From the NCBI GenBank assembly GCA_029338615.1, contig JAQYAS010000001.1, forward strand, positions 1 to 41,738: a DNA stretch of 41,738 nucleotides, written 5' to 3'. Made by a program: the position numbers and the translations under genes. Position 1 is the stretch's first letter, and each line of letters starts with the position of its first letter. The notes under the pieces are model-generated. The model ran no database searches, had not been told where the DNA came from, and saw nothing but the letters and a program-made list of their open reading frames with translations. The stretch comes from Clostridiales bacterium. GTDB lineage: Bacteria > Bacillota > Clostridia > Lachnospirales > Lachnospiraceae. Shown here one piece after another: positions 5,130 to 30,069 of the stretch.

Positions 5130-5203
5130 CGGTGCGTGGCTCAGCTTGGTAGAGCGCTTCGTTCGGGACGAAGAGGTCGTGGGTTCGAATCCCGTCGCAC
5201 CGA
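5130..5203 (+). tRNA. tRNA-Pro (anticodon CGG)
   Basis: A 74-nt cloverleaf: acceptor CGGTGCG pairs with CGCACCG, D arm GCTC/GAGC, anticodon stem CTTCG/CGAAG with loop TTCGGGA (anticodon CGG, reads CCG), T loop TTCGAAT. The discriminator base is A and CCA is not encoded. A run of T follows directly. Confidence 0.95.
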
Positions 5204-17327: not shown

Positions 17328-18917
17328 TTAGTGCTGCGCATATTCCGCCTTCAGTCTCTTCCTGTCTATCTTGCCATTTGCATTGTGAGGCATGCTTGTC
17401 ACCCTGACAAAGCGATTCGGCTCCATATAGTGTGGAACCCTTTTCTGGAATGCTTTAAGCAGTTCCGTCTCATCCTTCTTTTTGCCCTCATATATGAACA
17501 GGATCTTGTCTGCTGCATCATCATATACACAGGCATAGCTTCTTATACCGTCTATAGCTCCCGCTGCCGCCTCGATCTCACCGAGCTCTATGCGGTAACC
17601 CATGTGCTTGATCTGATAGTCCTTGCGGCACACATAGACCAGCTCGCCGTATCTGTTGTACTTCACCAGATCACCGGTCTTGTAGACCAGCTCTGGATAG
17701 TTCGGATTGAGCGGATTCTGGACAAATGCCTCCCGCGTCTTCTCCGCATTTCCGAAGTAGCCCAGAGCCACAAATGAACCTCTGGCATAGAGCTCCCCCT
17801 CCCGGCTGAAGCCCGTCTCAGGATTGATCTCCGGTGACACCTCCCTGCCGTTCTCATCAAGAACGAACACATCACAGTTGTTGCACGCACGCCCCATCGG
17901 CAGCGGCTCGTCATCGGCAAATTTTCTGTCCACCACATAATATGTACATATGTCGGTCGTCTCTGTTGGGCCGAACAGATTGGCATACATGGCATCCGGC
18001 AGATTCTGTATCCAATAGTTAAGCGGCTTTGTCGGCATCACTTCTCCGGCAAACAACACCTTCTTAAGCTCGGGGAGCTGCGCGTACTGGAACAGCTTGT
18101 AATTTGCAACGATCTGCAATGCCGATGGCACCCAATATATCGTGTTGATCCTGTATGTATTCATGAATTCCATAAGCTTCATAGGGAAGGTGAAATACGC
18201 CTTCGGTATGATGTACAGCGTGGCTCCATTCTTCAGTGTGCTGTAAAGATCCGATACCGACATACTGAAGTAGAATGGTGTCTGGCTTCCGAATATCGTA
18301 TTCTCGTCTATACCAAATGCCTCCGTGTACCAGTAGGTGTAGGATATCACATTCCTGTGTGATACCACAGCGCCCTTGGGAACTCCTGTCGAACCTGATG
18401 TAAAAAGCGCATACACAGGATCAGTGTCTATAGTCCTTTTTCTGACTGTCTCAAGCGCTGACTGATCAGCTTCTGCATCCAGCTCGTCAAGATTCAATAT
18501 CCTGAACACCTCGTTGGTCTCAGCATCCTGTCCCTGACATCCATCAGCCTGCACATCACGACTGTTCAGTTCCTGTGCCTTCTCCATATGCCCGGTGTCA
18601 GTCACGACTGCGACCGGCTTCAATGTTCCAAGTATCGACTCAGCTCTGGACGCCGGCATCTCCGCATCCAGTACCACATAAAAGTTGCCGCTGTAGACAA
18701 CGCCCATGTATGCTGCGACACTCTCCGGCTTCTTGTCCAACAGCACAGCCACAGGCTTATTCTTATCGCCATCCGTCTTTTCATATATCCATGCACCGAT
18801 CTGTCTGGAAAGCTTCACCATCTGACCATATGTGAGTCCGCCGTTCTCATCGGCAACCGCCAGCTTATCCGGATATCTTAAAGCCGAATTCTCTATAAAT
18901 TCCAATATATTTTTCAA
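17328..18917 (-). CDS. dltA: Amino-acid (D-alanine-type) carrier protein ligase, DltA-like
   Basis: A 529-residue AMP-forming adenylation enzyme. Core motifs: 'LFTSGSTGVPKGAVVSHRNV' (171-190), 'NLFGPTETTDICTYYV', 'YKTGDLVKYNRYGELVYVCR' and C-terminal 'NANGKIDRKRLKAEY' with the catalytic Lys. It loads the carrier protein encoded next. The start codon is TTG at 18917: GGTGG lies 6 bases upstream and no ATG fits. Between about 120 and 160 there is a loop rich in Asp, Glu and Gln. Two candidate promoters lie upstream. The DltA assignment rests on the motifs and on the gene neighbourhood; a related amino-acid specificity is possible. Confidence 0.82.
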   Translation of the reverse strand: MKNILEFIENSALRYPDKLAVADENGGLTYGQMVKLSRQIGAWIYEKTDGDKNKPVAVLLDKKPESVAAYMGVVYSGNFYVVLDAEMPASRAESILGTLKPVAVVTDTGHMEKAQELNSRDVQADGCQGQDAETNEVFRILNLDELDAEADQSALETVRKRTIDTDPVYALFTSGSTGVPKGAVVSHRNVISYTYWYTEAFGIDENTIFGSQTPFYFSMSVSDLYSTLKNGATLYIIPKAYFTFPMKLMEFMNTYRINTIYWVPSALQIVANYKLFQYAQLPELKKVLFAGEVMPTKPLNYWIQNLPDAMYANLFGPTETTDICTYYVVDRKFADDEPLPMGRACNNCDVFVLDENGREVSPEINPETGFSREGELYARGSFVALGYFGNAEKTREAFVQNPLNPNYPELVYKTGDLVKYNRYGELVYVCRKDYQIKHMGYRIELGEIEAAAGAIDGIRSYACVYDDAADKILFIYEGKKKDETELLKAFQKRVPHYMEPNRFVRVTSMPHNANGKIDRKRLKAEYAQH

Positions 18918-19154: not shown

Positions 19155-19199
19155 TAATAAAAAAGAACCATACCGCACCCCATTGCACGATATGGTTCT
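19155..19199 (-). terminator. Terminator of the biotin-carboxylase/YcsF operon
   Basis: Minus strand AGAACCATATCG pairs with CGGTATGGTTCT and is followed by TTTTTTATTAATTT. It lies 29 bp after the stop of the methionine-gamma-lyase-type gene. Confidence 0.85.
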
Positions 19200-19227: not shown

Positions 19228-20406
19228 TTATTTTTTGAGCAGGTTGAGCGCCTGATCAAGATCCTCTATGAGATCATCCGCATCCTCAATTCCCACAGAG
19301 AGTCTAACCTGTCCATCGAATATGCTCACTGCATGTCTCTGCTCAGGTGTCATATCAAAGTGGCTCATCGTCGGCGAATGCTGGATAAGTGAATCAACAT
19401 TTCCAAGACTTGTGGCAAGGCTGAATACCTTTACGTTGTTCATGACTGTTCTGACCGCATCCACACCGCCCTTGATGTCGACACTCATCATACCGCCAAA
19501 TCCGCGCATCTGCTTTTTCGCCACCTCGTATCCCGGATTGTCCGGAAGTCCCGGATAATATACCTTATCCACCATATCATGCTGCTGGAGGAACTTCGCA
19601 ACCTTCATTGCGTTGTCGCAATGCTTCTCCATGCGGACTGCCAGCGTCTTGAGTCCATTGACCAGCTGCCATGCACCAAATGGATCCAGTACCGCACCAA
19701 AGCACTGAAGGAACGGCATCCTGCATCGATCCATGAGCTCCTTTGGTCCAGCGATCACACCTGCTGTCACATTGCCATGTCCACCTATGTATTTGGTTGC
19801 TGAGTGAACTACCACATCCGCCCCAAGCTTCAATGGATTCTGCAGATATGGGGATGCAAATGTCGAATCCACCACCAGCTTTATTCCATCATATTCCTTG
19901 AGCATCTTTGATATCTCCTGAATGTCAGATATCTTGAGCACAGGATTTGCCGGGGTCTCCACATACACAAGTGTTGTGTTTGGTCTGATGGCTGCCTTTA
20001 TTGCATCCACATCTGTTGTATCAACAATGGAATACTCTATTCCAAATGAAGGAAGTATCTTCGTAAATAACGCAAATGTACATCCATAGATCACATCTCC
20101 AAATATAATATGGTCGCCCTGCTTTATAAGCGACATCACCGCTGTGGATATAGCACCAAGTCCGGAGGCGGTTCCCACCGCGTCCTCACCGCCCTCCAGA
20201 TATGCTATCTTCTCCTCAAATTCCCTGACGGAAGGATTGCCAAAACGGCTGTATACATACCCCTTATCTATGTGCTGGTTAAGATATACCGCCGTATCAA
20301 AGTCCGGAAGTATAAATGTTGAGGTCTGATATATAGGTGCCACATGGCTGCCTGTAACCGGATCTACGTATCTCTTTGCATGAATTACATCTGTTGAAAT
20401 TCCCAT
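19228..20406 (-). CDS. Methionine gamma-lyase-type PLP enzyme (Cys/Met metabolism family)
   Basis: About 392 residues. The PLP lysine is in 'HSATKYIGGHGN' (Lys about 205), with 'SRFGNPSV', 'LVVDSTFASPYL' and 'SLGNVDSLIQHSP' all typical of the cystathionine/methionine lyase family. The 'DVIYGCTFALF' segment has the Cys found in methionine gamma-lyases where cystathionine enzymes have Gly, so the preferred call is L-methionine to methanethiol, 2-oxobutyrate and ammonia. The ATG at 20406 is spaced 8 bases from GGAGG; the upstream ATG (20412) is too close. It follows the APC permease by 26 bp and is last in the operon. Confidence 0.82.
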   Translation of the reverse strand: MGISTDVIHAKRYVDPVTGSHVAPIYQTSTFILPDFDTAVYLNQHIDKGYVYSRFGNPSVREFEEKIAYLEGGEDAVGTASGLGAISTAVMSLIKQGDHIIFGDVIYGCTFALFTKILPSFGIEYSIVDTTDVDAIKAAIRPNTTLVYVETPANPVLKISDIQEISKMLKEYDGIKLVVDSTFASPYLQNPLKLGADVVVHSATKYIGGHGNVTAGVIAGPKELMDRCRMPFLQCFGAVLDPFGAWQLVNGLKTLAVRMEKHCDNAMKVAKFLQQHDMVDKVYYPGLPDNPGYEVAKKQMRGFGGMMSVDIKGGVDAVRTVMNNVKVFSLATSLGNVDSLIQHSPTMSHFDMTPEQRHAVSIFDGQVRLSVGIEDADDLIEDLDQALNLLKK

Positions 20407-20432
20407 TATCATTTCCTCCTATTATAAAAGTG

Positions 20433-21770
20433 TTATTTGTTCTCCACTCTGTCTATATGCTTTGCAGAGTAGAGGAAGTAGAACAATATTATCAAAACCA
20501 CCAATATCACACTCGGTATAAGCGCTTTTATATTGCCGGCATACAGTGCTATAAAGAGCACGATACAACCCACAAATGCAAGCGGATATGTGAGTTTTCT
20601 GAGTGGCATATGCCAGCACAGATTCTCCCATTCCTTTGGATATTTCTTCTTATACAGACAACTGCTCGTGAGGCATATGGTCATGTTGAGTGCACCACAC
20701 ACGCTTCCCAGCGTACATACTGTATTGTAGAATTCCGCAAGAGCTCCACCTAAACTGCCGATAACCGCTATGATTATGGCTATGACCGCAGAGAACAGAA
20801 CCCCGAACCATGGATTTCCCTTCTTATCTGTCTTTGCAAATATCTGTGGGATGGCTTTTTCCTTTGCCATTCCTCGGAGAAGTCTTGATGCACAGAACAC
20901 CTCGCCTATCAGACATGTCACTGCTGCGATCCATGCTCCAAGGTTGATTATAAAACCTGCCCATTTGCCAAATACCATAGATGCCGCCGTGGTAAATGGT
21001 GATTCCATGGCGCCATACTCTGTGTAGCTAACCATACCAACCAGGACTACTATTGCCAGTGTGTATATTCCGATGAATGTGACAAATGCCCAGAACATAG
21101 CCTTAGGGAATGTCTTGATATTCTTTACCTCATCACCTGCTGTGAGAAGCGCCAGAGGTCCCATATATGCATATATTCCCATTCCTATGGCCGCCCATAT
21201 TCCCTTGCCGCCAAATGGGGAAAATGGCTTGTAATTTGCCGGATCGATCTTGCCTGTGAATATACCTGCAAATATAAACACGATCATTATTCCTACCAGT
21301 ACCGCCACCAGTACAAGTTGCACTGTTCCGGTTATCTCACCACCTAGCAATGCTATTGCGGTAACTACAATGATGATTACAAGAGTCCAGATGATTGCTG
21401 ATACCTGCTCACTGTCACCAATTACATAGAACGAATTTGTAAGACTTCCCGCCGCAATGGACACGGAGCCGAAGAAAATGACGTTCATACCGACATATGC
21501 CAGACCAGTGAGCGCTCCAACAGCCGGACTTATTACCTCCTTACTCCAGTGATATATGGATCCTGCTCCTGGCATCGCAACAGCCAGTTCGCATACTGCC
21601 ATACATATAAGCATGATGAGCACACCCGATATAAAATAGGCAAGTGCTGCGGCAGGACCAGCCGCCTGTGCCGCCTGTGACACAAGAAGGAATATTCCAT
21701 CGCCCACAACAGCACCCACTCCCAGTGCCCAGATCTGCCAGAAATTCAGTTTCTTAGATTTGTTTTCCAT
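20433..21770 (-). CDS. APC family amino acid permease
   Basis: A 445-residue membrane protein with about 12 hydrophobic helices. The first helix carries 'GVGAVVGDGIFLL', the substrate-backbone-binding break of APC transporters (family form G-x-G-x-I/V-G). Further family traits are 'AMPGAGSIYHW' and 'GDEVKNIKTFPKAMFWAF'. It imports an amino acid or related compound by cation symport or exchange. It starts 58 bp after the YcsF-like gene and runs into the lyase gene, so it probably brings in the substrate of one of those enzymes. The substrate cannot be assigned. Confidence 0.88.
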   Translation of the reverse strand: MENKSKKLNFWQIWALGVGAVVGDGIFLLVSQAAQAAGPAAALAYFISGVLIMLICMAVCELAVAMPGAGSIYHWSKEVISPAVGALTGLAYVGMNVIFFGSVSIAAGSLTNSFYVIGDSEQVSAIIWTLVIIIVVTAIALLGGEITGTVQLVLVAVLVGIMIVFIFAGIFTGKIDPANYKPFSPFGGKGIWAAIGMGIYAYMGPLALLTAGDEVKNIKTFPKAMFWAFVTFIGIYTLAIVVLVGMVSYTEYGAMESPFTTAASMVFGKWAGFIINLGAWIAAVTCLIGEVFCASRLLRGMAKEKAIPQIFAKTDKKGNPWFGVLFSAVIAIIIAVIGSLGGALAEFYNTVCTLGSVCGALNMTICLTSSCLYKKKYPKEWENLCWHMPLRKLTYPLAFVGCIVLFIALYAGNIKALIPSVILVVLIILFYFLYSAKHIDRVENK

Positions 21771-21828
21771 ACTACATCTCTCCTTTTCTTTTTGTTTTTA
21801 TTTAAACAAATCCGAAAAAAGCGATTTG

Positions 21829-22581
21829 TTAAAATCTGACAACATCTACTCCCGCATCCTCAAGACCACCGCGAAGCACCCTCAGTATCTCCAGACTGTT
21901 CGGAACATCCGAATGCAGACACAACACCTTCGGGGCGATCGGGAACTGCTTTCCATCAACACTTAGATATTTATTGTCAAGGACCATGGAAAGCGCCTGC
22001 TTCAGTATCTTCTGAGGATCCATCAGCGCCTTGGTCCTTGTTATGATCATGTGTCCATCCGAATCGTATTCCAGATCCGGGTATCCGACTGCTGCCACCC
22101 GTAGACCTTCCTTCTCACAGAGCTCTGCCAGCACATTTCCCGCCTCTATCACCAGATACATGTCCTTTTTGAAATCCTTAATGGCATCCATGAACACCCT
22201 GGCAAAGCTTTCATTTTCTGACACAAGCGGATCCATCACACCATGTGGACTCACATGCGTTATCTCCCCCCCTGCCTTTTTCACAAATGCATCCAGAGCT
22301 CCGAACTGGTACATCAGATCACAGTACAGCTCATCCTCGCTTATCTGCAGCATCCTTCGTCCAAACCCCTGTCTGTCAGCAAATCCCGGATGGGCACCTA
22401 TGCTCACTCCATTTTTCACCGCCAGCTCCACAGAGTTACGCATCACCACGGGATCTCCCGCATGGAAGCCGCATGCAAGATTGACCGATGTCAGGTATGG
22501 CATCAGAGCAGCTTCATCACACAGCCGGTAACATCCAAAGCCCTCCCCCATGTCAGCATTCAATATTATCTCCTTAGCCAT
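21829..22581 (-). CDS. pxpA: LamB/YcsF family hydrolase (PxpA-like), divergent
   Basis: About 250 residues, standard family length. Conserved: 'LNADMGEGFG' (7-16), 'NLACGFHAGDP' (34-44) and 'GAHPGFADRQGFGRR' (62-76). PxpA hydrolyses the lactam ring of 5-oxoproline together with PxpBC and ATP. Two otherwise very conserved places differ here: 'HVKPHG' is 'HVSPHG' (Ser111 for Lys) and 'CLHGD' is 'CLHSD' (Ser224 for Gly). The partner subunits are also urea-carboxylase-like, so the substrate may not be 5-oxoproline. The start at 22581 follows GGAAG and lies 6 bp upstream of the preceding gene's last base. Confidence 0.82.
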   Translation of the reverse strand: MAKEIILNADMGEGFGCYRLCDEAALMPYLTSVNLACGFHAGDPVVMRNSVELAVKNGVSIGAHPGFADRQGFGRRMLQISEDELYCDLMYQFGALDAFVKKAGGEITHVSPHGVMDPLVSENESFARVFMDAIKDFKKDMYLVIEAGNVLAELCEKEGLRVAAVGYPDLEYDSDGHMIITRTKALMDPQKILKQALSMVLDNKYLSVDGKQFPIAPKVLCLHSDVPNSLEILRVLRGGLEDAGVDVVRF

Positions 22582-22586
22582 GAACA

Positions 22587-23579
22587 TCACTTCCTTTCTA
22601 TACATCCATCGCCTTCAAAGATCAGGTTCTGCCTGCGCCTCAGTTCATTTGCATCCTCCTGGGTTGCATATATGAATCTGATCTTATCCCGTCCCGGGAA
22701 TATCTGTCCCATCTTCCATACATCTGCATACACGACCGATATAGCACATATCAGGCCGCCACATGTAGGAGCTTCAACAGGGAACATGATAAGTGTGTCT
22801 CCACTTACATTTATGCCACCCGGGCCCGGATACCCGTGATCCGTGATATTGGACGGATGACCTCCGGCTGCCGCTCTGTCTGGGTTCCATATTGGTTTCG
22901 GCCCCTTCAATCTGATTCCTGCCCTGTCACAGAACATCTGGGCTTTATACTCACTCTGATATATCTGCTCCATGCCCTCATCAGTTATAAAATCAGGAGC
23001 TGCATCAGGTCCCGGCATGGCATGAAATTCCCACGTGTCGGTCATTTCCGGAATATATTCACTCTTTATGCGGCATCCGATACTGTCGCGGTTTTTGTCA
23101 GTGACAGCTCCCGGAGCCAGCTGATCACCCTTTTTCAGCTTTCTTCCGTCAAATCCGCCAAAGCTGCCATAGACCGCCGTGGCCTTGCTACCCAGATATT
23201 CCTGCGCATCCATGCCTCCTGTCATCATGAGATAAGTTCTGAAGCCTCTGGTTGTCGGTAGCATCTTTCCTGTCCTGAAAACATCACCGGCTTCGACGTG
23301 GACTGCCTCATATGGCGGAATCTGTATATCATTTACATAACCTTCTATGGTAGAACCCCCATATGCTATAACCGACTCCTCCTCGAACTCCAGCGCAAAT
23401 CCTCCTCCGGCGATCTCTATCCCTGCCTCGTTCAGATCATTTCCCAGCACCTTGTTGAGAAGCCTCGCCGTATAGTGATCCATGAAGCCTGAATGTGATA
23501 TTCCCACATCTTTATATCCTGTTCTTCCATACAGATCCTCGATAATGGACTGTATTCCTGCTGAAATAACCCTGGCCAT
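22587..23579 (-). CDS. Biotin-dependent carboxyltransferase subunit, AHS2 type (PxpC/urea carboxylase-like)
   Basis: About 330 residues of the allophanate-hydrolase-subunit-2/PxpC family. The N-terminal 'YGRTGYKDVGISHSGFMD' (17-34) matches the urea carboxylase form (Y-x-GR-x-GY-x-D-x-G...SG-x-MD) better than the PxpC form (TVQDGGR). It goes on with 'LNKVLGNDLNEAGIEIAGGG', 'YLMMTGGMDAQEYLGSKAT' and 'PGGINVSGDTLIMFPVEAPT'. Together with the AHS1-type gene 12 bp upstream it should form the carboxyltransferase that moves CO2 from biotin to a nitrogen of the substrate. The ATG at 23579 is preferred over GTG 23588 because of GGAGG spacing. Confidence 0.82.
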   Translation of the reverse strand: MARVISAGIQSIIEDLYGRTGYKDVGISHSGFMDHYTARLLNKVLGNDLNEAGIEIAGGGFALEFEEESVIAYGGSTIEGYVNDIQIPPYEAVHVEAGDVFRTGKMLPTTRGFRTYLMMTGGMDAQEYLGSKATAVYGSFGGFDGRKLKKGDQLAPGAVTDKNRDSIGCRIKSEYIPEMTDTWEFHAMPGPDAAPDFITDEGMEQIYQSEYKAQMFCDRAGIRLKGPKPIWNPDRAAAGGHPSNITDHGYPGPGGINVSGDTLIMFPVEAPTCGGLICAISVVYADVWKMGQIFPGRDKIRFIYATQEDANELRRRQNLIFEGDGCIERK

Positions 23580-23591
23580 ATCATCCACCTC

Positions 23592-24587
23592 CTACACCTG
23601 TCTAAGTGTCTTCTGCGCATCTCTCTGTTTTCTCTGCAGCTCTTCGAGTTCACTCTCGTGGGCGACGTACTCCTTCAGCCAGTCATCCACGCTGAACACT
23701 ATATCCTCTGTCCTGTAATCCCACTCGCCTCTGTCAACCTGCTCATATATACTGTCAAGCTCCTCCTCCGACACTTCATAATACTGGATTATATCCGTAG
23801 GTCTGATGAAAGCCGGACTACTCTGGAATGCCGGATGCACCGGTCTGGCCCTGAATATTGGAGCCGTCCTGCCGATGAGCTGACAGCCTCCGCTGGACTC
23901 CACTCCGAATATGGTCATGCAGTAATCCGCCAGATCAACTGTTCCCTCCGGAGTCCATGTTCTTGCCGGATTATATTTGGGGCAGGCAAGGGCCGATGCC
24001 GGATCAAGTGGATAACAGAATGGAAGTCCCGGGAAGAATCCCACCATGGATGTGAGCCAGCCTGTTCCAAGAAATCTCCGCTTCAGCTCCTCAACCGTAA
24101 GCCCGTTGTAGGCCGCTATGTATTCCAGATTGCTTCCATCCTTACAGTAGAATGCATCCGGATTTACCTCTTTCACATATTTGTCAATGGAGCGCCTTAC
24201 CAGGCTGTGGTCAAATGTTAGAGGCAGATACAACTTCCTGGCATTTATCACCTGTCCATACACATCAGGAAGCGCGGTCTCCACAGCAGATATCTCTTCT
24301 ATGAGAACATCAACTGATAATGTGAGAGGATCAAACTCATACAGTACCGACTCGCTTCCGGGTACTGTCTCTATGAGTCCTGATATATTTCTGTCTCTCA
24401 TCCGTCCATTTATGATGATCACCCTGAGACTTCTAAGGATTATATCCTTTATCGTCTTATTGGATGAAGCCTCATTATTGCCATACACAACCTCCAGGAA
24501 TCCATCGCCGGCCTGTCTGAACACTATCTCCGGACACCCCGGTCTTCCGGGTATTCTCTTAAGCACCGGATCATATTTACTCTTCAT
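23592..24587 (-). CDS. Biotin-dependent carboxyltransferase subunit, AHS1 type (PxpB/KipI/urea carboxylase-like)
   Basis: About 331 residues, roughly 100 longer than ordinary PxpB/KipI. 'LPLTFDHSLVRRSIDKY' (121-137), 'KYNPARTWTPEG' (204-215) and 'GGCQLIGRTAPIF' (233-245) are signatures of the urea carboxylase CT domain rather than of PxpB. The C-terminal tail (265-331, 'VSEEELDSIYEQVDRGEW') also resembles the segment between CT and BCCP domains in urea carboxylase. So this looks like one piece of a split urea-carboxylase-like enzyme. The ATG at 24587 has GGAGG 8 bases upstream and overlaps the PucR-type gene by 11 bases. Confidence 0.82.
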   Translation of the reverse strand: MKSKYDPVLKRIPGRPGCPEIVFRQAGDGFLEVVYGNNEASSNKTIKDIILRSLRVIIINGRMRDRNISGLIETVPGSESVLYEFDPLTLSVDVLIEEISAVETALPDVYGQVINARKLYLPLTFDHSLVRRSIDKYVKEVNPDAFYCKDGSNLEYIAAYNGLTVEELKRRFLGTGWLTSMVGFFPGLPFCYPLDPASALACPKYNPARTWTPEGTVDLADYCMTIFGVESSGGCQLIGRTAPIFRARPVHPAFQSSPAFIRPTDIIQYYEVSEEELDSIYEQVDRGEWDYRTEDIVFSVDDWLKEYVAHESELEELQRKQRDAQKTLRQV

Positions 24588-25776
24588 GATCACTACCTCC
24601 TTCTTGTCCAAATATTTTCTCGGCTATAATCGCCATTTCAAGATTTGTTCTGTCCATCCCCTTAAGGGTGTTATCTGTCAGTAGCTCCTTTATGAGCTGT
24701 ATTCTCTTATTTACTGTATTCCTGTGGATATGCATCTGATCTGCCACCTGCTTCACACTGCAGTTGCATTCAAAATATCTGTCCAGCGTCTCAACAAGCC
24801 CGGCGTCATTGTCCCTGTCATATCGCACCAGTGCTCCCAGCTGTCTGTCCACGAATCTGTGTACATACATGTCATCTCTTGTCGTGAATAACAGCTGGTA
24901 TATTCCTATATCCTCAAATCTCACAAGCTCCTCACCATCCATGCGGGCCTTTCTGACTGCAGCAAATGCTGCATAATAGCTCTGACTGATATACGCCAGC
25001 CCATCCACCTGCTCTCCAACACCGATTCTGGTGACCACACCGACATGATGTCTCCTGAGCATCTTTGTAAATGACATCATGACCTTGCACACGATCTCAT
25101 CATCCACATCCTTTAGGATGACCACCTGATATTGTCCCATCTGAAATGATGCATACACTCCAAGACTACGGAGTGCATATATGAGGAATCTGTTCCATTC
25201 CCTGATCTTCTGAAGTTCTATATACTGCCGCTTGTCCTCCGCATACAGAACAATGCATGTATAAGCAGCATCAAATCTGAAGCCCTGCTGTCTGAGCAGC
25301 TGCTCATGGTTGTCTATCCTCGCCTTACCCGACAGGACTGCAGCAAATACTTTATTTACTGTATTGCTGACATTTCTGTCCCTCTCTATCTCTGATATGT
25401 ATTCTCTCTGGAGTTCTCCGACTCTTGTTGTATCTCTCATATGTATAAGTGGAAAATTGAGAGAATCACAACAGCTCACCACCTCCTGCGAGCTGAACCT
25501 GTCAACATCCGTAGTGACTACCATCAACCCACAACTGCCCATGTCTGCCAGCTTCCGTATAAGCGCTGTTTCGTCATCGCGTCCTATCATTGCCGCTGAT
25601 GTCATCACCAGGCATCTCTCGTACGCCGACTCCGGATCCTCATCGGGAAGCTCTGCCATGCTCTCTATCCTCAGAGCCCAGTCTATGATGTTGTTGAGTC
25701 CAAGACTTCCCGCCAGAAGCTCAAGGCCATATTCTTCATAGGTGTTGCTGTATATCTCCTTGAGTCCAACCGCCAT
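24577..25776 (-). CDS. PucR family transcriptional regulator
   Basis: A 399-residue regulator: N-terminal PurC/PucR regulatory domain ('YGLELLAGSLGLNNIIDWAL', then 'CCDSLNFPLIHM'), a central GGDEF-like region ('VGVVTRIGVGEQVDGLAYIS', 'SYYAAFAAVRKAR'), and a C-terminal helix-turn-helix 'CSVKQVADQMHIHRNTVNKR' typical of PucR/CdaR proteins. Members usually activate catabolic genes for purines, ureido compounds or sugar acids in response to the substrate. It lies inside the operon, between birA and the carboxyltransferase genes; its start codon shares one base with the birA stop. It is probably a pathway-specific activator of this operon. Confidence 0.85.
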   Translation of the reverse strand: MAVGLKEIYSNTYEEYGLELLAGSLGLNNIIDWALRIESMAELPDEDPESAYERCLVMTSAAMIGRDDETALIRKLADMGSCGLMVVTTDVDRFSSQEVVSCCDSLNFPLIHMRDTTRVGELQREYISEIERDRNVSNTVNKVFAAVLSGKARIDNHEQLLRQQGFRFDAAYTCIVLYAEDKRQYIELQKIREWNRFLIYALRSLGVYASFQMGQYQVVILKDVDDEIVCKVMMSFTKMLRRHHVGVVTRIGVGEQVDGLAYISQSYYAAFAAVRKARMDGEELVRFEDIGIYQLLFTTRDDMYVHRFVDRQLGALVRYDRDNDAGLVETLDRYFECNCSVKQVADQMHIHRNTVNKRIQLIKELLTDNTLKGMDRTNLEMAIIAEKIFGQEGGSDHEE

Positions 25777-26534
25777 CAGATATAGCCTCCTTCCCCTCTC
25801 AGACTGATCTCGCCCGCATACACATCATGAATCCTTCCATCATCCTTCAGCACACATAAGCTGCCATCATTGTTAAGGTGCTCTATTACTGCCTTTTCAC
25901 TGAAATCCCCGCGGGTGAGTCTTACTACATCCCCCATCCGGATCAGGCATTGCTCTATCTCCTCTCTGTATCTGCCCAGGCCGTCAGATTCCATACACAC
26001 TGGATATACACTCTCCAGTTCTTCCAATACAGAACTGAGCAGAAGCCGGGTATCAAACTGCTTTTTCTCGAGAATATACATAGATGACGCTTTATCTTTA
26101 AGATCCTCATGGAACACTCTCTGATTTACATTTATCCCAAATCCTATAACCAGAATGTTCTCACCGTTGACCTCGTGATATTCCGCCAGTATTCCACATA
26201 TTTTTCTATCGCCCGCAATGACATCATTGGGCCATTTTATCCATATTGGAGTCTCCATATACAGCTCCATTGCCCTTCTGACCGCAAGTGCTGTCACCAT
26301 AGGCATCACCGCAATCTGTCTGGATGTAATACCGTTCTTTATACCAACGGAACAATATATATTTCCCTCCGGACCGGACTGCCAGCGCCTTCCATGACTG
26401 CCTTTGCCAGATGTCTGCATACCGGCAACGGCTGCTGTTCCATCCGGTGCCCCACGTTTCATCAGACCGAACACCTCATCATTCGTTGATGTGACCGTAT
26501 CGTATATGTGCAGGTTGCTGCGGATATCAATCAT
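25776..26534 (-). CDS. birA: Biotin-protein ligase, monofunctional (no DNA-binding domain)
   Basis: About 252 residues containing only the ligase and C-terminal domains: 'DTVTSTNDEVFGLM', the biotinyl-AMP loop 'QTSGKGSHGRRWQSGPEGN' (family form GRGRxGR), 'IWIKWPNDVIAGDRKICGIL' and 'VIGFGINVNQ'. The N-terminal winged helix of bifunctional BirA is absent, so it should not act as a biotin repressor. It lies directly after the BCCP gene (15 bp) in the operon, which suggests that it is dedicated to that BCCP. The ATG at 26534 is 8 bases from GAGGGA; a GTG at 26543 abuts the site and is less likely. Confidence 0.88.
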   Translation of the reverse strand: MIDIRSNLHIYDTVTSTNDEVFGLMKRGAPDGTAAVAGMQTSGKGSHGRRWQSGPEGNIYCSVGIKNGITSRQIAVMPMVTALAVRRAMELYMETPIWIKWPNDVIAGDRKICGILAEYHEVNGENILVIGFGINVNQRVFHEDLKDKASSMYILEKKQFDTRLLLSSVLEELESVYPVCMESDGLGRYREEIEQCLIRMGDVVRLTRGDFSEKAVIEHLNNDGSLCVLKDDGRIHDVYAGEISLRGEGGYI

Positions 26535-26549
26535 AGGCTTCACTCCCTC

Positions 26550-26768
26550 TCAACAGGTAAGTACTATCATAGGGGAATCAACCTCAAGTTCATCCCACTC
26601 CTCAACCAGTATCTCTTTAACTGTGCCGGTCTTCTCGGATTCACAGCTTATCTCTGTTTTCATACAATTGATAACTGCCAGCTCCTGTCCAACCTCTACC
26701 TTCTGTCCAACCTCAACTACTACTCTTGCTACGAGTCCCGGCATCGTCGCCCTCATTGTGTATTCCAT
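26550..26768 (-). CDS. Biotin carboxyl carrier protein (biotinyl domain) with variant motif
   Basis: A 72-residue stand-alone biotinyl domain: 'MRATMPGLVARVVVEVGQKV' and 'GTVKEILVEEWDELEVDSPM' frame the lysine turn. The biotinylation motif is 'INCMKTEI' (Lys37), where the usual form is E-A-M-K-M-E/M; only Met-Lys is kept. The protein carries CO2 on biotin between the carboxylase encoded upstream and the carboxyltransferase subunits encoded downstream. GGAGG precedes the ATG and the gene starts 13 bp after the carboxylase stop. There is no long N-terminal linker as in fatty-acid-synthesis AccB. Confidence 0.88.
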   Translation of the reverse strand: MEYTMRATMPGLVARVVVEVGQKVEVGQELAVINCMKTEISCESEKTGTVKEILVEEWDELEVDSPMIVLTC

Positions 26769-26781
26769 GATCCATTCCTCC

Positions 26782-28746
26782 TTACGATAAGTTAAATTTC
26801 TTCTTTATCATCTTGGTAAGTACATGCGCTGCCTCATCAACGCTTCCATACAGACTGCTGTCTATCAGGATATCCTTGTTGGTAAAATCTTCACTGTACT
26901 CCTTCGCATAATGCATGGCATAGCTTCTTCTCGCCTCGTCCACCGATGTGATAAGATCCTTAGCTGCCTCCGGCTCTATATGCAGCTCCGTGATACAGTT
27001 CTGAAGTCTCACTTCATATGGTGCATATATGTATATACTGAAGTGATTCCTTACGTTTCTCAGCACATAATCAGAACACCTTCCAACTATGATGCATGAC
27101 TCTTTCCTGGCAAGCTCCAGTATAACTTCGCTCTGGGCTTTGAATATCCTGTCCTGCTCCTCCTCAGGAAGGGTTCCAAGCGGATACTTCATCTTCTCAT
27201 ATGAACCACCCTCTATGCTGTCCATAACCTCATCCGGCTTTATCTCCATGCCACTGTTCCTGACCGCCTGCTCCACGATATCTCTGTCGTAGTACTCTAT
27301 CCCCAGCAGCTCCGCCATCTTACGGGCGATCGGTCTGCCTAGGCTTCCAAACTGCCTTGATATGGTTATCACATAATTCTCAAGACCTATGTTCAGCTTC
27401 TCTCGCTCAAGGAATGCTGTGGTGAAATCTCCGATGACAAAACTTCTGTCTCTCATGATGGCGATCTCCGTCTCTATGGTGTTGGTCACCCCGCCGATCA
27501 CGAATTCCTTCAGTGCACCGAGCATCCTGTCTATGCATTTCTGTCTGTCATCCGCCCTGACTATCAGCTTGCACAGCATCGGATCATAGAAAGGTGATAC
27601 TCTGTAGCCCTCATATAATGCGTGATCCACACGTACATCCCCATCGGATGTATCCGGGAATTTCAGTTCATTTATCACTCCGGGGGCTGGATTGAACGTC
27701 TTTGGATCCTCGGCATATATCCTGCACTCCATGGCATGACCGTTCAGCTTCACATCCTCCTGTGAGATTGGAAGCTTCTCACCTCTTGCTGTCTGTATCT
27801 GAAGCTTCACAAGATCAAGCCCGGTCACTGCCTCTGTCACCGGATGCTCAACCTGAAGTCTTGCATTTATCTCCATAAAGTAATAGCTTCCATCCTGTGC
27901 CCTGAGATATTCAACAGTGCCTGCACCGCTGTATTTCATCTCGCGGATCAGCTTCGAAGTGTATCCATACAGCTTCTTCCTGTCCTCAGATGTCACAACC
28001 GCCGATGGCGACTCCTCTATAATCTTCTGATATCTTCTCTGTATGGAACATTCACGTTCCCCGAGGCACACGACGTGTCCGTGTTCATCCGCCATAAACT
28101 GGACCTCTATATGTCTTGGATTCTGTACGGATTTCTCCACATACACATCCGATGATGCAAATGCCATCTCGCCGATCCTCTGCATACTCTCAAGCTGCGC
28201 CTGTACTATCTCCTCGGACTCGAACGTCTCTATCTTCTGTATGCCCTTTCCACCTCCGCCCTTATCAAGCTTCAGCAGTATGGGAAGTCCTACCTTTCCT
28301 GCAGTCTCATATATCTCGTTTATACTTTTTATAGGCCGTATAGTTCCCGGTGTCACAGGTACTCCGATGGATGAAGCCACATTCCTGCAATAACACTTGG
28401 ATTCAATATTCTTAAGTATATCCGGATCAGGGCCTATCCATTTGGCCCTCGCCTCAGCAACCGCCTCAGCAAATTCTGCGGATTCTGAGAGGAATCCATA
28501 ACCGGGATGAACCGCATCAGCTCCGGTATCCTTCACCGCCTGAATGAGAATATCCATATTCAGGTAACTTTTTACAGGAGCCGATTTTCCAATATAATAA
28601 GTTTCAGTCGCATCCGCCAGATAATGCGCATCCTTGTCCGCATCCGAATAAACAGCAACAGTCTCTATACCCATCTCCTGACATGTGGTGATTATTCTTC
28701 TCACTATCTCACCTCGATTGGCTATCAGAACTTTCTTTATCTCCAT
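26782..28746 (-). CDS. Biotin carboxylase fused to a cytidylate kinase-like domain
   Basis: A 654-residue two-domain protein. Residues 1-450 form a biotin carboxylase: 'IANRGEIVRRII', 'VHPGYGFLSES', the ATP-grasp glycine loop 'KLDKGGGGKGI' (159-169), 'CLGERECSIQRRYQKIIEE' and the active-site 'MEINARLQVEHPVTE' (291-305). Residues 458-654 match the cytidylate-kinase-like family: 'VITISRQFGSLGRPIARKMA' and 'GIEYYDRDIVEQAVR', then 'IIVGRCSDYVLR'. Its P-loop lacks the standard GKS/T lysine, as often in this family. The two are in one open frame with no stop, start or spacer between them. The carboxylase loads biotin on the BCCP encoded next; the kinase-like domain's role is unknown. It is the first gene of a nine-gene operon. 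Confidence 0.88.
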   Translation of the reverse strand: MEIKKVLIANRGEIVRRIITTCQEMGIETVAVYSDADKDAHYLADATETYYIGKSAPVKSYLNMDILIQAVKDTGADAVHPGYGFLSESAEFAEAVAEARAKWIGPDPDILKNIESKCYCRNVASSIGVPVTPGTIRPIKSINEIYETAGKVGLPILLKLDKGGGGKGIQKIETFESEEIVQAQLESMQRIGEMAFASSDVYVEKSVQNPRHIEVQFMADEHGHVVCLGERECSIQRRYQKIIEESPSAVVTSEDRKKLYGYTSKLIREMKYSGAGTVEYLRAQDGSYYFMEINARLQVEHPVTEAVTGLDLVKLQIQTARGEKLPISQEDVKLNGHAMECRIYAEDPKTFNPAPGVINELKFPDTSDGDVRVDHALYEGYRVSPFYDPMLCKLIVRADDRQKCIDRMLGALKEFVIGGVTNTIETEIAIMRDRSFVIGDFTTAFLEREKLNIGLENYVITISRQFGSLGRPIARKMAELLGIEYYDRDIVEQAVRNSGMEIKPDEVMDSIEGGSYEKMKYPLGTLPEEEQDRIFKAQSEVILELARKESCIIVGRCSDYVLRNVRNHFSIYIYAPYEVRLQNCITELHIEPEAAKDLITSVDEARRSYAMHYAKEYSEDFTNKDILIDSSLYGSVDEAAHVLTKMIKKKFNLS

Positions 28747-28770
28747 CTGTCACGCCCCTTTTCTTTTTTT

Positions 28771-28826
28771 GATAAAACAAAAACAGCGGCAAAGATTGTC
28801 TTTTTAAGGACCTCTTTGTCGCTGTT
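28771..28826 (-). terminator. Intrinsic-terminator-like hairpin at the predicted transcription start of the operon
   Basis: Minus strand AACAGCGACAAAGA (28826-28813) pairs with TCTTTGCCGCTGTT (28795-28782), one mismatch, and is followed by TTTGTTTTATC. It lies between a good promoter and the carboxylase start codon, so nearly all of the ~75-nt leader is this structure. This suggests attenuation, or a stabilising 5' stem. Confidence 0.65.
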
Positions 28827-28832
28827 AGGTGT

Positions 28833-28861
28833 ATTCTAGCATCAAACCAGCATACTAACAA
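28833..28861 (-). promoter_or_regulatory. Promoter of the biotin-carboxylase/YcsF operon
   Basis: Minus strand TTGTTA (28861-28856) and TAGAAT (28838-28833), spacer 17 bp. The predicted start is near 28826, the first base of the hairpin. The remaining upstream bases to 29030 hold no gene that I can see. Confidence 0.65.
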
Positions 28862-29103: not shown

Positions 29104-30069
29104 TTACTTTTCTGCGAGTCTCTCAAGAGCCTCACTCTCTTCCGGGATAGATCTGAGTCCTCCGCGCTTTTCAACGCACAGGCTCGCAACCGCATTCCCG
29201 TATCTTGCACACTCTGCAAGCTCATCTATACTGAACTCCTCCAGTCTCTTATCCGCTCTGACAAGCTGTGATACAAATGCTCCCCAGAATGAATCCCCAG
29301 CCCCCGTCGTATCTACCACATGGCTGACGAATCCGGGAACCTTCCGGCTTCCATCCCTGCTGCATATCAGCACACCCTCACTTCCCAGGGTGACCGCAAC
29401 AAGTCTGACACCGCTTCCCAGAAGATACTCTGCTGCCTCTTCCGGATCGGAAAATGGTGTGAGGAGCGCTGTCTCCTCGTCCGAAAGCTTCATTATATCT
29501 ACAAATGGAAGAATACTCTTCATCCTCTCCATCGCATTTTCTCTGCTATCCCACAGCGGTGCTCTGTAGTTCGGATCATACGATATCACCGCGCCGTATT
29601 TCTTTGCCTCCTTCACCGCCTGAAACGTGGTGGTTCTGGCCGGCTCATCCGTGAGTGAAAGTGAACCTATATGGAACACCTTTGTATCTCTGAGCAGTTC
29701 GGCGTCAACCTCCTTGTAACAGAGCATCGTATCCGCTCCTGGTTTTCTGGCAAATGAGAATTCACGTTCTCCGTTCTCATCCAGAGTGACAAATGCCAAT
29801 GTGGTAAATACCGTATCATCAACCACTATACCTTTTGTCTCTATCCCTGCCTGTTTTGCAGTCTCAACCAGGAAATTGCCGTGCATGTCATCTCCAACTT
29901 TGCCTATGAATGCCGTCTTAAGTCCGGCTTTACCTGCTGCCGTGAGCATATTCACCGGAGCACCTCCGGGATTCTGCTCGAAGAGTTTCATCCCGGAATC
30001 AGTTCTTCCGGCGGGAGTAAAGTCTATCAGGAACTCACCTAGAGCCACAACATCATATTTCTTTTCCAT
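29104..30069 (-). CDS. Fructokinase (PfkB/ribokinase family)
   Basis: A 321-residue sugar kinase. PfkB traits: 'VVALGEFLIDFTPAG', the substrate-side 'NPGGAPVNMLTAAGKAGL' and the C-terminal catalytic signature 'DTTGAGDSFWGAFVSQL' with the catalytic base Asp and anion hole. 'FIGKVGDDMHGNFL' is typical of fructokinases. It phosphorylates fructose to fructose-6-phosphate in the cytoplasm. It follows the GH32 gene by 21 bp and ends the operon, so it handles the fructose freed by that enzyme. GGAGG precedes the ATG. Confidence 0.92.
   Translation of the reverse strand: MEKKYDVVALGEFLIDFTPAGRTDSGMKLFEQNPGGAPVNMLTAAGKAGLKTAFIGKVGDDMHGNFLVETAKQAGIETKGIVVDDTVFTTLAFVTLDENGEREFSFARKPGADTMLCYKEVDAELLRDTKVFHIGSLSLTDEPARTTTFQAVKEAKKYGAVISYDPNYRAPLWDSRENAMERMKSILPFVDIMKLSDEETALLTPFSDPEEAAEYLLGSGVRLVAVTLGSEGVLICSRDGSRKVPGFVSHVVDTTGAGDSFWGAFVSQLVRADKRLEEFSIDELAECARYGNAVASLCVEKRGGLRSIPEESEALERLAEK

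Follow-up and report, generated by a model that had tools for sequence, protein, structure and literature searches.

A clostridial operon that pairs a split urea-carboxylase-type enzyme with a PxpA-family hydrolase: a candidate biotin-dependent lactam-opening system

Introduction

Urea and guanidine carboxylases are single polypeptides in which a biotin carboxylase (BC), the carboxyltransferase (CT) parts AHS2 and AHS1 and a biotin carboxyl carrier protein (BCCP) follow one another, as in the yeast urea carboxylase KlUC (PDB entry 3va7). Lys1605 of KlUC is described as the likely general base and the K1605A substitution is said to inhibit severely (PMC5770610), while Asn versus Asp at the substrate site is reported to tell urea from guanidine carboxylases (PMC12186494). 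A second system, PxpABC 5-oxoprolinase, consists of a PxpA-family hydrolase encoded beside a two-protein CT_C_D/CT_A_B pair (PxpB and PxpC). Here we analyse a 41,738-nucleotide stretch of DNA, hereafter referred to as the window, from a Clostridiales bacterium of the family Lachnospiraceae (assembly GCA_029338615.1, contig JAQYAS010000001.1, positions 1 to 41,738). Nine genes of the window form an operon whose products include a split biotin carboxylase, a urea-carboxylase-type CT and a PxpA protein, and these are together predicted to open a lactam by way of transient N-carboxylation.

The operon shares with urea and guanidine carboxylases the CT family, the catalytic Lys, the urea-type Asn, the HPSN loop, and BC with a biotin carrier, but its parts are separate proteins, its CT forms a clade of its own with a GFxPG motif, and its partner is PxpA rather than allophanate hydrolase. 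Like PxpABC, it places a PxpA-family hydrolase by a CT pair with GFxPG, and BC and BCCP accompany some PxpABC loci too. Unlike the operon's subunits, classical PxpB and PxpC lack the catalytic Lys and the substrate-site Asn. In classical PxpA, residues 178 and 189 are both Arg; proteins of the window's type have Leu or Val at the first and mostly Glu at the second. Caprolactamase CapAB likewise opens a lactam in an ATP-dependent manner with a role for bicarbonate, but belongs to a different protein family and works without biotin; lactam carboxylation is one of three mechanisms proposed for it (PMC8453981). In Aspergillus nidulans the lactam genes lamA and lamB, controlled by AmdR together with gatA and gabA, are co-regulated with omega-amino-acid genes (PMC8016842). 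A paper from 2011 pointed out that certain genomes have the CT genes as a split pair, which it described as unstudied (PMC3199775), and the partial texts of PMC13274462 and PMC8683493 had no bearing on biotin. No biotin-dependent lactam hydrolase of this type was found among the literature titles and abstract openings listed, in searches that covered few subscription papers.

Results

Organization of the operon

Nine closely packed open reading frames occupy positions 19228-28746 of the minus strand, and each has a Pfam match above the curated cut-off. In the order of transcription, followed by the downstream hairpin, they are:

26782..28746, minus strand: BC fused to a cytidylate-kinase-like domain, 654 residues (BC, residues 1-450, Biotin_carb_N / CPSase_L_D2 / Biotin_carb_C; PF13189, residues 459-631)
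26550..26768, minus strand: BCCP, 72 residues, with CMKTE and predicted biotinyl Lys37 (Biotin_lipoyl, 55.8 bits, cut-off 22.1)
25776..26543, minus strand: biotin-protein ligase (BPL_LplA_LipB; TIGR00121, 148.6 bits, cut-off 83.1, residues 11-249 of 255)
24577..25776, minus strand: PucR-type transcription regulator (PucR and HTH_30; PF07905, PF17853, PF13556)
23592..24611, minus strand: AHS1 carboxyltransferase subunit (CT_C_D), with Lys212 as counterpart of KlUC Lys1605
22587..23588, minus strand: AHS2 carboxyltransferase subunit (CT_A_B), with the Asn of GGINVSGD and an HPSN loop as in urea carboxylase
21829..22605, minus strand: YcsF/PxpA-family hydrolase, predicted ring-opening subunit (LamB_YcsF, PF03746, 259.6 bits; Leu178 versus classical Arg)
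20433..21770, minus strand: APC-superfamily permease, predicted importer (AA_permease_2)
19228..20412, minus strand: methionine-gamma-lyase-like pyridoxal-phosphate enzyme, predicted downstream step (Cys_Met_Meta_PP, PF01053, 479.3 bits)
19164..19199, minus strand: terminator-like hairpin downstream of the operon

Spacing between genes ranges from a 35-base overlap to a 58-base gap. The AHS1 frame probably starts at the ATG at 24587 rather than at the TTG at 24611, because the family consensus begins there, and the 35-base overlap then shrinks to 11 bases. Terminator-like hairpins mark both ends of the operon (29061-29040 and 19199-19164, minus strand), in a region with 11 hairpins versus a shuffle average of 4.9. 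Since the core gene set recurs in other genera and phyla, its assembly is more than chance.

The original prediction for this locus, made from the window's letters, described nine close minus-strand genes supplying every part of a biotin enzyme. The reading frames and Pfam matches confirm all nine parts, and the AHS1 motif KYNPARTWTPEG and the AHS2 motif YGRTGYKDVG...SGFMD on which it relied are both found in the sequence, but it overlooked the cytidylate-kinase-like fusion on BC.

The carboxyltransferase is of the urea carboxylase type

Comparison with protein models placed both CT subunits closer to urea carboxylase (AHS2 268.9 bits, AHS1 196.9) than to PxpC (138.3) or PxpB (40.9), with the whole-protein cut-offs unreached in all cases. 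The cut-off of the single-polypeptide urea carboxylase NCBIfam model (1303.85 bits) is not attained by the separate proteins, of which BC scores 469.0, and the PxpB/PxpC models likewise stay below theirs (TIGR00370, 40.9 of 145.55; NF045499, 138.3 of 500; TIGR00724, 211.5 of 230.2). The top PDB match for AHS1 and for AHS2 was the yeast urea carboxylase.

The alignment column of KlUC Lys1605 holds Lys in 17/17 split urea-carboxylase-like rows and 78/78 fused rows, and Arg in 21/21 classical PxpB rows. A further AHS1 sequence, at the very start of its contig (L133; loci are given by L numbers) also has Lys, and was grouped with PxpB only by a script default. In a closer alignment of AHS1 proteins the counterpart of Lys212 is Lys in all 45 rows. 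The substrate-site column, which we take to be position 1330, holds Asn in the window and in 15/15 split rows, versus Gln in 20/20 PxpC rows; the 77 fused rows, including yeast, have 51 Asn, 24 Asp, one Ile and one gap. A guanidine carboxylase identity was ruled out on the same ground, the residue being Asn and not Asp. The HPSN loop was present in the split rows displayed and absent from the PxpC rows displayed.

The window's clade is a mosaic in which the GFxPG of PxpB (14/14 clade rows, 20/20 PxpB rows) is combined with the KYNPxR of urea carboxylase. In the closer AHS1 alignment GFxPG is present in 43 of the 45 rows and KY[NS]PxR in all 45. The motif GDVYLGxP is found in none of the 14 clade rows, in 71/79 fused rows and in 3/3 split rows without PxpA.

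A tree of the two CT subunits (65 rows, rooted on PxpBC, with the midpoint on the same branch) separated classical PxpBC from the window's clade by a branch with 100/100 support. The window and 12 relatives form a 13-row clade (96/87) drawn from several phyla: members of the Lachnospiraceae, other Clostridia, Dehalococcoidia, Thermomicrobiales, Chloroflexi and Actinomycetes. A third group (100/100) unites fused urea and guanidine carboxylases with the split rows L062 and L080. The mean path from the window is 4.69 to the fused-enzyme group versus 6.02 to PxpBC.

PxpA replaces allophanate hydrolase in related loci

PxpA is encoded near the CT pair in the window and in 13 of 14 fetched loci of the window's type. 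The fourteenth, L052, is a contig of genome G021, an uncultured Butyrivibrio record from the same family, Lachnospiraceae, as the window's genome; its PxpA lies on a separate contig, L148. No allophanate hydrolase was detected in any of the 14 loci or among the operon genes, a statement that leaves out the rest of the window's genome. Fused urea carboxylase loci (n = 73) yielded the opposite picture, with no PxpA and 62 allophanate hydrolases, and PxpA accompanied all 13 classical loci, which were chosen for PxpB.

In a PxpA tree the 14 proteins from loci of the window's type, the window included, form one 100/100 group versus the 13 classical proteins. Branching largely mirrors that of the CT tree, and the unlinked PxpA of G021 falls beside those of the window and L138, matching the placement of its CT.

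The phylogeny and neighbourhood survey proposed as checks with the original prediction support it. It held that the CT subunits have the urea carboxylase and not the PxpBC form, and they retain both the urea-type Lys and Asn and lie outside PxpB/PxpC; its second proposal, a YcsF protein instead of allophanate hydrolase, agrees with what the fetched loci contain, within the search scope given above.

Relatives of these proteins are named allophanate hydrolase subunit 1, urea carboxylase, 5-oxoprolinase subunit PxpA, carboxyltransferase domain-containing protein or biotin-dependent carboxyltransferase family protein, and none of the names states the predicted lactam role. Provision for biotin is found within some loci: a ligase gene in the window, L138 and L140, and BioY after PxpA in Thermomicrobium roseum. 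In the latter organism the set lies on a plasmid (L168, 1036-12466, CT-PxpA then the biotin transporter BioY); upstream of it come xanthine-dehydrogenase-family genes together with an ABC transporter of the sugar type. On L148 (9118-18410) PxpA is followed by Cyclase-family, ketopantoate-reductase-like and stand-alone cytidylate-kinase-like proteins, a branched-chain-type ABC transporter and a class III aminotransferase. Four classical PxpABC loci (L156, L157, L161 and L162) have BCCP and BC between PxpC and PxpA, despite PxpB rows without the catalytic lysine. The split pair without PxpA in L062 (979-3894) adjoins a biuret-amidohydrolase-like gene (278.1 bits, cut-off 370).

Clues to the substrate

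Position 178 of PxpA, located between two invariant residues (Asp177 and Tyr180), holds Leu or Val in 14/14 proteins of the window's type and Arg in 13/13 classical ones; position 189 holds Arg in 13/13 classical proteins and in none of the window's type (mostly Glu). The replacement of both arginines suggests a substrate that lacks the carboxylate of 5-oxoproline, or in which it would be held differently. The Pfam name of this family, LamB_YcsF, presumably refers to Aspergillus lamB.

Genes of gamma-aminobutyrate (GABA) catabolism were found near three relatives. L139 has a GABA transaminase gene placed between those for the BC fusion and AHS1 (TIGR00700, 503.3 bits, cut-off 506.65). In L140 one lies on the opposite strand past the PucR gene (503.7 bits), and this locus also encodes an iron alcohol dehydrogenase, its type unclear. 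The transaminase gene of L059, about 4 kb upstream of AHS1, scores above the cut-off (547.0 bits), and a succinate-semialdehyde dehydrogenase (SSADH)-like gene (560.4 bits, cut-off 646.35) immediately follows PxpA. Fused and classical loci contained no relative, at 40% or more, of these transaminases or of the L059 SSADH. Together with the co-regulation of Aspergillus lamA and lamB with omega-amino-acid genes (PMC8016842), this makes 2-pyrrolidinone the likely lactam in those lineages, with GABA as the product.

Copies of the gamma-lyase-like gene, 89 and 86% identical, sit within the operons of L138 and L052. Its product reaches the cut-off of none of the 25 NCBIfam models shown; the highest score is 481.1, against a cut-off of 666. 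Permease homologues (80, 51 and 45% identity) come after PxpA in L138, L053 and L054. The KPHG lysine of PxpA is lost in the window, L138, L053, L054 and L148. Given the gamma-lyase common to the window, L138 and L052 and the lost lysine, the lactam of the window's lineage probably differs from that of the GABA-linked relatives. Cycloserine-, canaline- and amino-lactam substrates were weighed for this lineage and dropped, with nothing in their support. The original prediction had named a lactam or a ureido compound; the genes near the relatives favour the lactam, and the ureido compound is less favoured.

Biotin carboxylase and its fused kinase-like domain

The C-terminal Cytidylate_kin2 domain of BC matches PF13189 with 148.8 bits (cut-off 28) and PDB entry 3hdt with E 8.5e-20. 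The same fusion was found in 43 further proteins, 53-98% identical over the searched domain, two of them shorter N-terminally; named sources include Clostridium ljungdahlii, C. ragsdalei, Diplocloster and Treponema, and the nearest protein may come from the window's own species. GGGGKG, RR[YF]QK, EINARLQVEH and ECR[IV], which we take to be the catalytic motifs of BC, are kept in 44/44 aligned fusions. The classical Walker A motif is GxxxxGK[ST]; its lysine is missing from the fused domain (GSLGRPIARK in the window) and from the stand-alone copies shown.

In L148, L158 and L160, genes for stand-alone Cytidylate_kin2 proteins lie about 5 kb or less from PxpA, a count made without a chance control. 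Our guess is that the fused domain controls the carboxylase. According to precomputed Pfam data Cytidylate_kin2 also occurs in single chains with transporters, namely NhaC-type and PF00999 antiporters, MatE, an APC permease and ABC permeases (P0044-P0049, P0053, P0057-P0070 and P0075), and it may be a general regulatory add-on.

In the window's genome (completeness 92.8%) the single BC found was that of the operon, and the one other biotin domain found is next to genes of the oxaloacetate-decarboxylase beta and gamma types. A search of four genus mates gave no biotin carboxylase match. The PDB relatives of the operon's BCCP are mostly BCCPs. The ligase encoded in the operon may biotinylate this BCCP, and apparently lacks the N-terminal DNA-binding part.

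Distribution of the system

Carriers are distributed patchily. Among 299 genomes drawn from the family, five, the window's own included, had a near-full-length split match. At E 1e-25 the other matches in the order (295 genomes) and phylum (398) draws were fused (3 and 2), plus the fragment G565/L133. In the class draw the BC fusion occurred in 1/391 genomes, with at most three candidates scored in the rows shown, and it was absent from all 11 genus mates of four carriers. AHS1 relatives in genome contigs were taken as the best 80 of at least 572, mostly fused urea carboxylases; neither this set nor the sample of loci is a census. Viral contigs, scanned once with two peptide patterns, contained no relatives. 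Near the operon no guanidine riboswitch or other RNA family reached the gathering score, the sole match in the window being a tRNA at 5130-5203. The operon is flanked by a PfkB sugar kinase (29104-30069) and an AMP-binding enzyme (17328-18917), the latter nearest to amino-acid adenylation and DltA models; both are apparently unrelated to it.

Discussion

From gene content, residues, phylogeny and neighbourhoods we infer the following chemistry. BC would use ATP and bicarbonate to carboxylate biotin on BCCP, and AHS1 with AHS2 would transfer the CO2 onto the ring nitrogen, Lys212 being the likely base. N-carboxylation would weaken the amide and enable its hydrolysis by PxpA, and CO2 would finally leave the resulting N-carboxy amino acid. 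In the window's lineage the permease would import the lactam, and the product may feed the gamma-lyase. We predict an enzyme of a kind of its own; labels used in databases, among them 5-oxoprolinase and allophanate hydrolase, would be incorrect for it. A broader proposal seems to us evenly poised between true and false: that the urea-carboxylase CT family has a third branch, found across several phyla, whose members act as biotin-dependent lactamases, load chemically inert lactams with CO2 from biotin at the ring nitrogen and pass the N-carboxy lactam to a dedicated PxpA-type hydrolase, and that in Clostridia and spirochaetes the nucleotide-kinase-like domain fused to BC senses a nucleotide and gates the carboxylase. 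A single literature search for BC together with such a domain found no control of this kind.

Several observations weigh against these proposals. A program warning on the CT tree concerns 17 rows with atypical composition as well as three long ones, and the classical reference loci are all from the window's family. Eight of the 14 fetched loci yielded a BC and eight a BCCP; several of the loci are on short contigs, though the 18 kb of L053 hold a BCCP gene and none for BC. Both genes also occur in 4 of 13 classical PxpABC loci, so biotin genes are not specific to the clade. The BC domain has its higher score, 540.3 bits, with AccC, and 469.0 with urea carboxylase. The split urea-carboxylase-like loci L062, L072 and L080 show no PxpA; the contigs of L072 and L080 stop right after AHS2, while L062 continues. 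All three have GDVYLGxP in place of GFxPG, and L062 and L080 cluster with fused enzymes in the CT tree, for which L072 was too short. The window's PxpA passes the NCBI 5-oxoprolinase PxpA subfamily model NF003814 (259.7, cut-off 226), and it carries K119S and Y125D, with SPHGVMD versus the classical KPHGALYN or close variants. The window's own operon contains no GABA genes; these two changes and the gamma-lyase suggest that its substrate is not the one of the GABA-linked relatives.

The subfamily score of PxpA, the biotin genes of some classical loci and the GFxPG common to AHS1 and PxpB are what would be expected of an ordinary PxpABC 5-oxoprolinase with accessory biotin genes beside it. We consider this quite unlikely, because the PxpB and PxpC models remain far under their cut-offs, the Lys and Asn signatures are unlike those of every classical row compared, and the classical Arg178 of PxpA is replaced in every protein of the window's type. 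Retention of the urea-type Asn and the catalytic Lys, in loci without allophanate hydrolase, would also fit a true split urea carboxylase that degrades urea or another ureide with PxpA in place of that hydrolase. Such an enzyme is unlikely in view of the GABA transaminase genes near three relatives and the SSADH-like gene in one, the presence of GFxPG and absence of GDVYLGxP throughout the clade, and the report that PxpA is the likely lactam hydrolase of 5-oxoprolinase (PMC8453981).

It is also conceivable that the gamma-lyase acts first and frees a urea-like leaving group for activation by the carboxylase, one possible source being an amino acid of the canavanine or albizziine type. The lyase gene lies within the operons of the window, L138 and L052 and, at 86-89% identity, is more conserved there than the CT genes. 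It was not found in the 18 kb of L053 or in farther loci, among which several contigs, including L054, are short; moreover, this order of events leaves PxpA unexplained, and we regard it as highly unlikely.

If opening of a lactam through its N-carboxylation is indeed the function of the operon, it would add a biotin-based route to lactam opening in biology and give a function to a clade in which urea carboxylase and subunits of allophanate hydrolase or 5-oxoprolinase are among the names now in use. It would also hint at a relationship between PxpABC and urea carboxylase, since the clade resembles PxpABC in its PxpA partner and GFxPG motif, and urea carboxylase in its use of biotin, its catalytic Lys and its Asn. 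The system would offer possible enzymes for pyrrolidone- and nylon-type lactams, and the uncharacterised Cytidylate_kin2 domain would gain its first testable context.

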